DNA of 64,000 nt from Gemmiger formicilis (GTDB lineage Bacteria > Bacillota > Clostridia > Oscillospirales > Ruminococcaceae), in contig NZ_JACJJP010000010.1 in assembly GCF_016900095.1 (NCBI RefSeq), positions 1 to 64,000 on the forward strand, written 5' to 3'. Within the stretch, counting starts at the first letter, position 1, and each line of letters opens with the position of its first letter. Shown here one piece after another: positions 52,109-63,919 of this stretch. The translations under genes and the position numbers were made by a program. A model generated the notes under the pieces. It was not told the origin of the DNA. It was given only the letters and a program-made list of their open reading frames with translations, and ran no database searches.

Positions 52109-52137
52109 TTGAAATTCCAACGAGAATATGCTAATAT
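52109..52137 (+). promoter_or_regulatory. Promoter of the glycogen synthase gene
   Basis: -35 TTGAAA (52109-52114), 17-base spacer, -10 TAATAT (52132-52137); leader of about 140 bases. Confidence 0.65.
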
Positions 52138-52286
52138 TTGTCATAGCATCCAAAATTTGCGGAAAAGCTTCCGTTTTTTCCGTATGGGATGCCCGCATTC
52201 CCCGTGTAAGAATGCCCCGAAAAAGCCGTGCATGGCACGGCTGGCGCGGGATATCGTTGAAGGAAGAATCGAAAGGACACGATGTT

Positions 52287-54239
52287 ATGGCACAGAAGAA
52301 AGCGCATCCGAAAAAGCCGGTGAGCAAGGCGAAAGCCGCCCCGGCTGTTGCGGCCAAGCCTGTGGCTGAGGAGAAAACCGAACCCGCCCCCAAGAAGGCG
52401 GAACCCGCTGCCGAAAAGGCGGCGCCTGCCCCCAAGAAGGCAGAGCCTGTGACCGAAAAGGCGGCGCCCGCCCCCAAGAAGGCAGAGCCTGTTGCCGAAA
52501 AGGCAGCTCCCGCCCCCAAGAAGGCAGAACCCGCTGCCGAAAAGGCGGTACCCATCCCCAAGAAAGCAAAGCCTGCCCCCAAGAAGGCAGAACCCGCTGC
52601 CGAAAAGGCGGTACCCGCCCCCAAGAAAGCAAAGCCCGCTGCCAAGAAAAAGCCTGCCGCCAAGAAAGCGACTCCGGCCCCTGCCACCGAAGAGCCGAAG
52701 CCTGTTGTGGAAGAACCGGCGCCCGTTGTGGCGGAACCGGTGCAGCCGAAGGAGGAAGCACCTATGGAACAGCAGTATGACACGCCCCGCAGAAGCGTGG
52801 CGTTTATCGGTTCGGAATGTCATCCCTTTGTGAAGACCGGCGGTCTGGGCGACGTGATGTATGCCCTGCCCCGGGAACTGGTCAAGCAGAATTGCGATGT
52901 GCGGGTGATTCTGCCCCGGTACGCCTGCATCCCGCAGAAGTACCAGGACCAGATGGTCTACCGCGGCGAATTTTACATGGACCTGGGCGAGACCGGCCGC
53001 AACTACTACGTGGGCATCATGGAATACGTCCATGACGGCGTGGTGTACGACTTCATCGACAACCAGGAATTCTTCTCCGCCGGCAACCCCTATATCGGCC
53101 TGGTGGATGACATCCCCAAATACTGCTTCTTCAGCAAGGCAGCGCTGGCGGCCCTGAACTGGATGAACTGGATTCCCGATGTGATCCACTGCCATGACTG
53201 GCAGGCGGCGCTGGTGCCGGTGTATCTGCGCACCATGTTCCAGGATACCCCTGTGGGCCACGCCCAGACGGTGCTGACCATCCACAACCTGCGCTTCCAG
53301 GGCATCTACAACATCCCCACCCTGAAATACTGGACCGGCCTGCCGGACGAAGTGTTCAACATGGGCGCCATGAAGCAGGGCTACGAGGATGCCAATATGC
53401 TGAAGGCCGGTCTGGCTTACGCCGACCGCATCACCACCGTCAGCGGCACCTACGCCTGGGAGATCCAGACCCCCGAGTACGGCGAAAAGCTGGAAGATCA
53501 CCTGCGCTACCACAGCTACAAGCTGCGGGGCATTGTCAACGGCATCGACTATGAGATGTGGAACCCCGCCACCGACCCGGCCCTGGCCGTGAACTACGAC
53601 ATCACCAACGTGCTGGACCACAAGTGGCAAAACAAGCTGGCCCTGCAGGAGGAACTGGGCCTGGTGCAGGATCAGGGCAAGTTCGTCATCGGCCTGATCT
53701 CCCGCCTGACCAACCAGAAGGGTCTGGACCTGGTCAATGCCATTGTGCCCGAGCTGATGGACGGCAACACCCAGGTGGTGGTGCTGGGCACCGGCGACAA
53801 GGAGTACGAAGACACCTTCCGCTATTACGAAAACGCCTACCGCGGCATGTTCTGTGCCTGCATCCAGTATGACGAAGCCCGCGCCCACCGCATCTATGCG
53901 GGCGCCGACGCCCTGCTGGTGCCTTCCCGCTTTGAGCCCTGCGGCCTGACCCAGCTCAACGCCATGCACTACGGCACCCTGCCCATCGTGCGGGAGACCG
54001 GCGGCCTGAAGGACACTGTGGAGCCCTACAACGTCTTCAACGGTGACGGCAACGGCTTCACCTTCGACCGCTATGACGCCGGCCTGCTGCTGGACGCCAT
54101 CAACCGCGCCAAGACCGAATACTTTGTCAACCGGTATCACTGGGACGAAGTGGTCCAGCGGGATATGGCCAAGGATGTTTCCTGGGAGAATTCCGCCCGC
54201 CAGTACAAGGACCTGTACCTGGAACTGACGCCGTGGTAA
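52287..54239 (+). CDS. glgA: Glycogen synthase GlgA with N-terminal Lys/Pro/Ala repeat tail
   Basis: 650 residues; normal GlgA has about 480. Residues about 1-160 are a low-complexity tail with a 14-residue unit of the form PAPKKAEPxxEKAA repeated about six times, then KPAAKKKPAAKKATPAPA and an acidic Pro/Glu stretch. The GT5 domain follows from about 168 with FVKTGGLGDV (ADP-glucose loop) and, near the end, PSRFEPCGLTQ (E-x7-E motif). AAAGGA precedes the ATG at 52287. A second ATG at 52764, residue 160, has a perfect AAGGAGG 8 bases upstream and would give a standard 491-residue enzyme. It elongates glycogen from ADP-glucose. No other glg gene is nearby. Confidence 0.93.
   Translation: MAQKKAHPKKPVSKAKAAPAVAAKPVAEEKTEPAPKKAEPAAEKAAPAPKKAEPVTEKAAPAPKKAEPVAEKAAPAPKKAEPAAEKAVPIPKKAKPAPKKAEPAAEKAVPAPKKAKPAAKKKPAAKKATPAPATEEPKPVVEEPAPVVAEPVQPKEEAPMEQQYDTPRRSVAFIGSECHPFVKTGGLGDVMYALPRELVKQNCDVRVILPRYACIPQKYQDQMVYRGEFYMDLGETGRNYYVGIMEYVHDGVVYDFIDNQEFFSAGNPYIGLVDDIPKYCFFSKAALAALNWMNWIPDVIHCHDWQAALVPVYLRTMFQDTPVGHAQTVLTIHNLRFQGIYNIPTLKYWTGLPDEVFNMGAMKQGYEDANMLKAGLAYADRITTVSGTYAWEIQTPEYGEKLEDHLRYHSYKLRGIVNGIDYEMWNPATDPALAVNYDITNVLDHKWQNKLALQEELGLVQDQGKFVIGLISRLTNQKGLDLVNAIVPELMDGNTQVVVLGTGDKEYEDTFRYYENAYRGMFCACIQYDEARAHRIYAGADALLVPSRFEPCGLTQLNAMHYGTLPIVRETGGLKDTVEPYNVFNGDGNGFTFDRYDAGLLLDAINRAKTEYFVNRYHWDEVVQRDMAKDVSWENSARQYKDLYLELTPW
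52370..52675 (+). repeat. In-frame tandem repeat, 42-base period, in glgA
   Basis: About six imperfect copies encode PAPKKAEPxxEKAA. Codon use and GC match the gene, and all copies keep the frame, so the repeat is coding rather than a CRISPR or satellite. Confidence 0.8.
52749..52766 (+). promoter_or_regulatory. Internal ribosome binding site and start in glgA
   Basis: AAGGAGG (52749-52755), 8-base spacing, ATG (52764-52766) in frame with GlgA. It marks the exact border between the tail and the GT5 domain. Confidence 0.65.
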
Positions 54240-54271: not shown

Positions 54272-54312
54272 AAAAGAGCGTTAAAGCCTTGCCGGGCTTT
54301 AACGCTCTTTTT
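54272..54312 (+). terminator. Terminator of glgA
   Basis: Seventeen perfect pairs between 54272-54288 and 54295-54311 around TTGCCG, ending in a run of T. It is near-symmetrical, so it also serves the convergent PocR-AraC gene. Confidence 0.92.
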
Positions 54313-62066: not shown

Positions 62067-63002
62067 TCAGCCTTCGTCCGGCAGGATACGCAGCGCCACA
62101 TCGCGGCCGTTGATCAGGCTGGCCTCGTGCTCAAAGAACACCCGGCCCCCCACAGGCGTACACAGGGTCTGGCGGATGGCGCCCGAACAGGGGTCCACCA
62201 CCTGGGCCAGGGCCTGGCCGCGCCGCACCTTGTTGCCCAGCTCGGTCATGTACACCAGCAGTCCGCCCTGGGCGGGCTGGATGTTGCACAGGGTTTCCTC
62301 CGCAAAGATGCGGGCCGGCTCCCCCTGGGTGACCTCACACTGGCAAAGCCCCCGGGTGTGCAGGAACCGCACCACCGCTTCCACCGCCTGTCTGGCAGCA
62401 GACACGTCGATGCGGTCGGTGGCGGGGGTGTACAGGGAGAAGGTCTGGGTGTCCCAGATCTGCCAGTTGTAGTTCAGGGTGGTGGTGTCGTAGGGATGGG
62501 GTTCCCGCAGCGCAATGTAAGGCAGACCGAAGTCCCGGGCCAGTTCCGGGTTCTGGTAGCCGGTTTTCATGATGCGCAGATGGGGCAGACAATGTCCCGG
62601 CAGATACAGGCTGGTCACATGGATGCCGTAGGTGTACCCCTGCAGGGCCGCAAAGATCCGCGCCGCAATGCGCTGGGTAGTCTCGCCCGCATCGTAGCCG
62701 GGGAACATGCGGTTGATGTCGGTGTTGTCCGCCGCCCAGAACCGCCGCCCCACGTTCATGGAAAACTGGTTGGCGCAAGGGATGACCAGAATGCCGCAGT
62801 CCTGCCCCAAAGCGCCAGCCTGTTCCAGGGTATCCAGGCGGCGGATCAACTGGGAACAGACGTACATCTGCTGGATTTCGTTGCCCCGCAAAGCCCCCAT
62901 GACCGCCAGGGTCTTGCGCCCCGGCGTGCCGAAAAACCAGCCCTTCACGGCCAGGGGCTGGCGATAGGGGGTATCCAGCGTAAACAATACTTCCTCTCTC
63001 AT
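62067..63002 (-). CDS. AstE/AspA-like protein lacking a zinc-ligand histidine
   Basis: 311 residues of the succinylglutamate desuccinylase/aspartoacylase (M14-like) type, homologous in layout to its upstream neighbour. The first zinc site reads GALRGNE (Arg39 in place of His) where active members have G-x-H-G-D/N-E. The second-site region reads YGIHVTS (Gly in place of Asp before His128). The C-terminal beta domain (about 230-311) is normal. It may be a pseudo-enzyme or partner subunit. It overlaps the upstream gene by four bases (ATGA), so the two are coupled. Confidence 0.8.
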   Translation of the reverse strand: MREEVLFTLDTPYRQPLAVKGWFFGTPGRKTLAVMGALRGNEIQQMYVCSQLIRRLDTLEQAGALGQDCGILVIPCANQFSMNVGRRFWAADNTDINRMFPGYDAGETTQRIAARIFAALQGYTYGIHVTSLYLPGHCLPHLRIMKTGYQNPELARDFGLPYIALREPHPYDTTTLNYNWQIWDTQTFSLYTPATDRIDVSAARQAVEAVVRFLHTRGLCQCEVTQGEPARIFAEETLCNIQPAQGGLLVYMTELGNKVRRGQALAQVVDPCSGAIRQTLCTPVGGRVFFEHEASLINGRDVALRILPDEG

Positions 63003-63919
63003 ACACTGCCTCCCAAAACACGGGCTATCAGCGAACCCTCATACACCACGGGGTATTCCCGCAGGGTGAACAGCAACCCGGTGGCGGGGCTGTGCAGCGT
63101 TTCACGGATACCGCCGGTGAGAGGGTCGGCCACAACGCCCAGTTCCTGGCCTTTTTCCACCCGGACCCCATGGGCCACCGCGGGGAAAAAGACGCCGGGG
63201 AAATTCGCATTCACGAAGGAGACCGCGCCGTCGCTGCTGACGATGGGCGGGGCGATGGGCGCCACCGGGGCGTCCCACATGCCCAGGTGTGCCATGAGGG
63301 ACAGGATGCCGGTGAGCAGCTGCTCCCCGAAGGAACGGGTGATCCGGATCCCGATGCCCATTTCCACCACCAGGGTGGGGGTTCCCGCTGCGTTCAGGCT
63401 GTGGGCCAGGGTGGATTCCAGCACGGTGGCCGCGGCGTGAATCCAGATCAGGTTCATATTCAGGTATTTGGCCAGGGGCACCAGCTTTTCGGCGGTGTTC
63501 ACGTTGATGCGCACCTGGGGAATCTCCCGCAGGAAGATGTTGCTGGCGTGGATGTCGATGCAGGCATCGGCGCCGGTGATGTCCTCCATGATGCGGGCGG
63601 CAATGAGCTCCGACATGGCGCCGTCCCGTCCGCCGGGGAAGGTCCGGTTCATGTCCAGGTCGCACAGGGGCATGCCCCGGGTCATGGTGCTGATGCCCAG
63701 AGGGTTCAGCGCCGGATAAATGTCCACGGTGCCATGCAGGTGTTCCCGGTTATCCTGCAGCAGACGGTTCAGCCGCCAGGCCACATACTGGCCTTCCAGC
63801 TCGTCGCCGTGGGTGCCGGTGACCACGCACAGCCGGGGGCCGCCCGACCCGATGCGGCGTTTCTGGATGACCAGATCTTCGCCCACGGCCAGGGGGACCC
63901 GTACCACTTCCTGTATCAT
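62999..63919 (-). CDS. AstE/AspA-like zinc deacylase
   Basis: 306 residues. Zinc-site residues are present: His37 and Glu40 in GTHGDE, His124 in DIHASN, and the arginine pair region DLDMNRTFPG. EMGIG near residue 200 probably holds the catalytic Glu. The C-terminal beta barrel (about 225-306) contains GGIRETLHSP. Members remove acyl groups from acylated amino acids or cleave small amides. The substrate is unknown. It is followed with a four-base overlap by a degenerate paralogue and preceded by a cut gene 27 bases upstream. Confidence 0.85.
   Translation of the reverse strand: MIQEVVRVPLAVGEDLVIQKRRIGSGGPRLCVVTGTHGDELEGQYVAWRLNRLLQDNREHLHGTVDIYPALNPLGISTMTRGMPLCDLDMNRTFPGGRDGAMSELIAARIMEDITGADACIDIHASNIFLREIPQVRINVNTAEKLVPLAKYLNMNLIWIHAAATVLESTLAHSLNAAGTPTLVVEMGIGIRITRSFGEQLLTGILSLMAHLGMWDAPVAPIAPPIVSSDGAVSFVNANFPGVFFPAVAHGVRVEKGQELGVVADPLTGGIRETLHSPATGLLFTLREYPVVYEGSLIARVLGGSV

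Follow-up and report, generated by a model that had tools for sequence, protein, structure and literature searches.

The window, a 64,000-nucleotide stretch of Gemmiger formicilis DNA, carries a second glycogen synthase gene, the product of which we call GlgA2, our name for the tailed orphan paralogue. We judge, with a probability of roughly 0.6, that GlgA2 has two translation starts giving an anchored or clustered enzyme and a free one, and that their ratio tunes glycogen particles. In the mechanism that we propose, a second GlgA would have gained a disordered, histone-like N-terminal tail; a conserved Shine–Dalgarno site of moderate strength (AAAGGA) would yield the tailed enzyme, and a strong AGGAGG placed 8 nt before an ATG or GTG at the junction of tail and domain would yield an enzyme without the tail and as large as an ordinary GlgA. 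The internal route would operate in this species and across about half of the subclade to which it belongs. The tail would localize or cluster the enzyme on glycogen as this grows, with the basic N-terminal stretch as the most likely means, and the short form would work freely, with the ratio of long to short form setting particle number or place. Production of both proteins is likely, judging from comparison of the genes.

If this is true, a tailed GlgA with a selected second start would offer a candidate, open to direct test, for how gut bacteria place their glycogen, as well as a case of an internal start revealed by synonymous-site conservation. A 2025 review of granule positioning covers PHB and polyphosphate, and the word glycogen is absent from its main text (PMC13052382). 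We found no report in the open-access literature of an N-terminal extension, of disorder or of internal initiation in a glycogen or starch synthase or in GlgA. The tailed GlgA paralogue is real and clade-wide, our literature searches turned up no prior description of it, and comparative evidence argues for an internal start that is functional in part of the clade.

A second glycogen synthase with an N-terminal tail

Positions 52287–54239 form a single open reading frame (ORF) of 650 amino acids, 159 of which precede the internal methionine. An earlier note on this DNA had described this ORF, its tail and a junction at which AAGGAGG is followed after 8 nt by ATG, and direct reading of the sequence bore out every element, coordinates included. 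Straight after the tail, from residue 171, the protein matches PF08323 (E 5e-76; 256 bits against a cut-off of 22.7). The score for TIGR02095 (552.4 bits, cut-off 328.45) passes the family threshold for GlgA, and that for the narrower equivalog NF001898 is below threshold (565 against a required 603). In an alignment to 2qzs, the counterparts of E. coli GlgA Lys15, Arg300, Lys305 and Glu377, which we take to be active-site residues, are identical in the window protein; E377 is named in the title of one PDB entry. The motifs KTGG, SRLT.QKG and FEPCG were without variation across a 45-sequence alignment, and the predicted model matched 2qzs (E 3e-39, TM 0.86 by target length), consistent with the GT-B fold of glycogen synthases. 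Judging by its residues, GlgA2 is an intact-looking, catalytically intact GT5 enzyme; an ADP-glucose donor and a glycogen product are predicted from the sequence. It resembles the bacterial GlgA proteins of E. coli (2QZS/3COP) and A. tumefaciens (1RZU) in fold, domain length and active-site positions, but these solved chains of 477–485 residues have no tail, whereas GlgA2 is tailed and comes from a second gene that lies apart from the glg cluster.

Features of the glgA2 region and of the separate glg cluster (contig C33); positions without a contig name are those of the window
Feature	Location	Strand	Basis or remark
Promoter-like site: TTGAAA, 17 nt, TAATAT, with TG before the second hexamer	52109..52138	+	Consensus scan only
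AAAGGA, Shine–Dalgarno for the long start (ATG 52287) at a spacing of 9 nt	52272..52277	+	Sequence and relatives
N-terminal tail of 159 aa, low in complexity (Lys/Ala/Pro/Glu) and predicted to be disordered	52287..52763	+	Sequence; predicted model
Internal Shine–Dalgarno AAGGAGG within tail codons (K-E-E)	52749..52755	+	Sequence; constrained in relatives
Internal in-frame ATG, start of a putative 491-aa tailless GlgA	52764..52766	+	8 bases after AAGGAGG
GT5 ADP-glucose-type glycogen synthase domain (GlgA2) and stop	52764..54239	+	Family profiles, alignment, predicted fold
Probable terminator downstream of the gene: an inverted repeat with a T run at its end	54273..54312	+	Sequence read directly; terminator scan did not list it
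GlgB	C33 82242-84077
GlgC	C33 80946-82013
GlgC/GlgD-type ORF	C33 79732-80748		Under the GlgC cut-off
Tailless GlgA	C33 78149-79549		42% identical to window GlgA

The predicted model gives the tail a pLDDT mostly below 50 and places no secondary structure before residue 169, and searches of the tail against Pfam and NCBIfam returned no family match. It contains eight [AP]KKA units. A protein search found the tail on no other protein of the genome, with 150 of 189 first-look candidates scored and composition correction weakening the search. At the DNA level, 12 of 13 matches in the genome to the pattern KKAxPAxKKA fell within this gene; the thirteenth, with two mismatches, was on contig C98.

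Among relatives, an in-frame extension was present in 108/108 complete copies (106 of the main locus set plus L189 and L199), at 71–100% domain identity and with lengths of 19 to 257 amino acids; the shortest, of 19 residues, belong to L200 and L201. We defined subclade A as loci with at least 82% identity to the window domain. Its 66 tails have a median length of 178 amino acids (range 50–257), and the 39 tails of more distant tailed copies a median of 141 (19–230); mean K+A+P+E content is 74% and 69%, respectively. L198, the tail start of which is missing, was left out of these statistics, and L116, with an unrecognized start, was dropped from one tail data set. The expectation that GlgA normally lacks such a tail held in all 25 of the more distant GlgAs that we examined (1 at 58% and 24 loci at 47–55% identity), which begin just before the same strand as the tailed domain. 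In the survey of relatives that the earlier note had proposed, the tail proved to be coding sequence and a trait of the whole clade.

The long start is near-invariant. Among 66 complete subclade-A copies, 65 have AAAGGR in front of it, in 57 cases at a spacing of 9 nt. These 65 start with ATG (48) or GTG (17), and AGGAGG occurs before the start in 0/65; the 66th copy (L045) has AAGGAGG instead. By eye, the consensus across relatives reads GAAAGGA...ATGGCACGGAAAAAAGC. Because of this start and of the extension in all complete copies, the tail is very probably translated, and retained while its sequence drifts. Eight Gemmiger/Fournierella loci (L050-L053, L055, L056, L062 and L097) have a GTG long start and no internal site.

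Net tail charge spans -36 to +22 and is zero or negative in 12/66 subclade-A and 17/39 more distant tails; the first 60 residues are basic in 63/66 and 37/39. The earlier note had suggested that the long form could bind glycogen, nucleic acid or polyphosphate; we rejected the whole tail as a charge-conserved polyanion binder as a general rule, as total charge varies over this range. [AP]KKA units number 146 against 48 after shuffling in subclade-A tails (at least one in 45/66) and 25 against 12 in the more distant tails (13/39), contrasts that are inflated by repeats.

Upstream, a promoter consensus scan of 2.4 kb gave two matches, which overlap, where 0.8 were expected, making the promoter-like site a candidate promoter for a single-gene transcript. 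The leader would be about 140 nt and, by eye, is without conservation among relatives. In the interval from the promoter-like site to the long start (52139-52286), a hairpin followed by a T run lies at 52159-52174 and is a possible attenuator. An Rfam search of gene and leader returned just two sub-threshold matches (E 0.4), on the terminator-like repeat.

Distribution and ancestry of the internal site

The window contains four AGGAGG-N8-ATG matches, where shuffled sequence would give 0.69. AAGGAGG-N5-9-RTG has 16 matches; 12 are followed by ORFs of at least 253 amino acids and the other 4 by ORFs of at most 90. These 12 are the present site and 11 that resemble ordinary gene starts, as judged by ORF length and not by family search.

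We scored a site in relatives wherever 6 nt or more of AAGGAGG lay 5–11 nt upstream of an in-frame ATG or GTG and this codon preceded the RRS anchor by no more than 14 codons. By this definition, the site is present in 43/76 scorable subclade-A loci (43/77 distinct loci) and in 0/40 scorable tailed loci at 70–82% identity (0/41 distinct loci); L090 and L196, which have too little upstream sequence, account for the difference between distinct and scorable. With a 5-nt Shine–Dalgarno threshold, the counts become 49/77 and 4/41. The main locus set left out 38 duplicates as well as L111, L189, L199 and L207 (short or anchor unmatched). L189 and L199 have tails, with AGGAGG-N8-RTG absent from the 60 nt inspected, and L207 is cut by a contig end. 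An earlier start-site count had 81 inputs, with L111 out (domain start missing) and 11 without an upstream stop.

Spacing between Shine–Dalgarno and start codon is 8 nt in 43/43 sites, although spacings of 5 or 11 would likewise keep the frame. The start codon is ATG in 25 and GTG in 18. The site lies 8 codons before the anchor in 33 loci and at five other positions in the remaining 10 (six in all), and the 43 sites overlie 23 different hexapeptides, including KEEAPM, EEVKPM, EEETTM, KEADEM and EEVPAM. Losses occur close to the window gene: two Gemmiger loci at 93–94% identity (L044 and L041) keep the ATG but have no AGGAGG, three loci (L040, L043 and L046) are reduced to GGAGG, and the site is lost or weakened in the Fournierella, An87 and An120 group.

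In a FastTree phylogeny of 117 tailed and 11 tailless sequences (L108 left out), all the tailed sequences fall on the same side of a branch with full support; the deep order is tentative. The subclade-A clade has 77 rows, 42 with the site and one (L116) below 82%, and its sisters are L102, L104 and L106; it branches from within the tailed sequences. The internal-site label switches at least 15 times along the tree. As the site is absent from 33/76 and 40/40 loci and changes this often, it is, on this comparison, dispensable; it looks younger than the tail, and patchy.

The tailed gene is an orphan paralogue; its copies make up a single clade, most of which comes from gut Oscillospirales. In the genus, 15/35 genomes (19 of the 35 being at least 90% complete) carry it at 92–100% identity, and all 15 carriers also hold another GlgA match at 39–44% identity. 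Elsewhere its occurrence is patchy: it was found in 17/297 genomes of a family sample, four of them from the genus, in 50/400 genomes of a second family (f14) and, with a looser threshold, in 10/295 genomes of an order sample, which include that of the window and G593 with its 58% tailless form. The nearest named locus, L099, is 99% identical and labelled Gemmiger. Among L039-L118, the domain is about 85% identical across loci labelled as different genera or families, with no shared neighbours found, which suggests transfer among gut bacteria or mislabelled metagenome bins.

Constraint at the junction and competing explanations

Synonymous shuffling of 68 tails (100 rounds) produced 11.9 ± 3.0 junction sites (maximum 20) against 32 observed, and 13.9 ± 2.9 (maximum 22) with Val and Met fixed. 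Outside the junction there was no excess, with 24 sites observed against 26–31 from the shuffles. Peptides able to encode a site realize it in 43/46 cases at the junction and in 13/67 elsewhere in tails (p 5e-16); as these tests compare related genes, p values are overstated and should be read as an ordering, not as probabilities. Where the start position is Val, so that GTG is a free choice, the site is realized in 18/21 against 13/66 cases. The contrast remains after thinning to one sequence per 95% (26/29 against 10/52), 92% (15/17 against 6/40) or 90% identity (5/7 against 3/32). The more distant tailed set has no junction enrichment (0/3 against 1/10 elsewhere). In RNA predictions, the internal Shine–Dalgarno is no more open than expected, being unpaired at 0.40 against 0.39 for synonymous shuffles and more open in 19/43.

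By these comparisons, the nucleotide sequence of the internal start is constrained, in part of subclade A, more than peptide and codon usage would require. Because the junction site is kept over differing peptides beyond synonymous expectation, the data point to selection for internal initiation, and two forms are likely. The earlier note had proposed a long, charged form and a short, normal enzyme from one gene, with loss of the site in close relatives as grounds for giving up the idea. Of that interpretation, the clade-wide tail and the constrained internal start stand and universality of the site does not: it is kept in 43/76 subclade-A loci, but is missing from the other 33, including the Gemmiger relatives at 93–94%, and from all 40 distant ones. 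A universal two-form design is refuted by these losses; one that is retained in places and repeatedly lost or regained survives.

Three explanations of the junction site compete with the two-start reading. Only the long form may be made, with the site arising as a by-product of repeats of the E-E-A-A-P-V/M type and of inheritance. Such repeats do create sites elsewhere in tails (13/67 compatible places), 33/76 scorable subclade-A loci have no site, and the loci, being related, are not independent; we nevertheless consider this explanation possible but unlikely, as the junction exceeds the synonymous shuffles (32 against 12–14 of 68), the enrichment persists after identity thinning and ATG stands behind an in-register AGGAGG 25 times at the junction and 0 times elsewhere. 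That the internal start is a relic of an ancestral tailless gene, in front of which the tail was added, would agree with a short product equal to a normal GlgA plus roughly ten residues and with tailless outgroups that start near the same strand. As the site looks younger than the tail, being absent from the 40 scorable more distant tailed loci while subclade A is nested in tailed sequences, we regard a relic as very unlikely. The AGGAGG, which sits between tail and folded domain, could also pause elongating ribosomes there without being a start; slowing by internal Shine–Dalgarno-like sequences has been proposed, a claim that is described as disputed (PMC5100845). Pausing requires no start codon, yet RTG follows an in-register AGGAGG at 8 nt in 43/46 junction cases against 13/74 elsewhere, and Val at the start position is mostly written GTG (18/21), which makes pausing highly improbable.

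Within the two-start reading, the role of the tail can be taken in more than one way. It might tie the enzyme and its glycogen to the nucleoid or to other polyanions as PhaM, PhaF and AlgP do for PHB and polyphosphate; the synthase itself would then anchor the glycogen particles of gut Oscillospirales, with a selected internal start setting the ratio of anchored to free enzyme. We think this specific version quite unlikely. As total tail charge is not conserved, clustering or spacing of the enzyme by a tail that binds no DNA is no less likely than anchoring.

Comparison with known systems and genome setting

Plant starch synthases (for example, SSIV and SSIII) have N-terminal extensions of the coiled-coil type. 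They share with GlgA2 a GT5 domain with an added N-terminal region, and the catalytic domain 6GNE matched the predicted model; we take the extensions themselves to be unrelated to the GlgA2 tail. Histone-like tails are reported to tie granules to DNA in PhaM and PhaF (PHB/PHA), AlgP (polyphosphate) and MLDS (lipid droplets), and PAKKA motifs to occur in PhaM and MLDS (PMC13052382, PMC9049629, PMC5504291). As described there, a single protein of this kind has a part that binds the granule and a histone-like tail that binds DNA. The GlgA2 tail may be comparable; unlike theirs, it is N-terminal, sits on the polymerizing enzyme itself and contains much Glu in addition to Lys. A family search found no phasin or other PHA-granule domain in the window protein; as glycosyltransferase families alone match, GlgA2 is not a member of this group and is at most similar in its working. 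The proposed pair of a long and an N-terminally shortened form from one gene has counterparts in infB (IF2 alpha/beta), cheA and ccmM, and for CcmM the long form is described as anchoring and the short one as structural (PMC11005335). GlgA2 differs in that its site is clade-restricted and patchy and in that its two forms are predicted from sequence.

The genome assembly comprises 3.26 Mb in 98 contigs, and profile matches place a glgB-C-D-A cluster on another contig. The window gene is therefore a second GlgA outside the glg cluster and not the sole GlgA of the cell. In addition to that cluster, the genome has a second branching-enzyme match over cut-off and three glycogen phosphorylase matches over cut-off; the loci of glycogen-enzyme matches are C33:78149-84077, C18:5850-7535, C10, C22 and C14. 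By these profile matches, there is much duplication of glycogen enzymes. Another genome of the genus (G003) has a third GlgA (C53:6182-7630), 39% identical to the window domain; the tailed gene of that genome lies on this contig as well, some 61 kb away.

Among 79 named loci and the window, a crude longest-ORF caller, applied to many short flanks, found no conserved neighbours: the largest neighbour cluster comprises 28 loci and represents a shadow ORF opposite glgA, and the next ones recur in at most 5 loci. By our reading of the ORFs, fructokinase-type and AraC-type genes flank the window gene. Further along, at 62067-63919, two adjacent minus-strand ORFs resemble what we take to be AstE/AspA-type deacylases, perhaps a tandem duplication.
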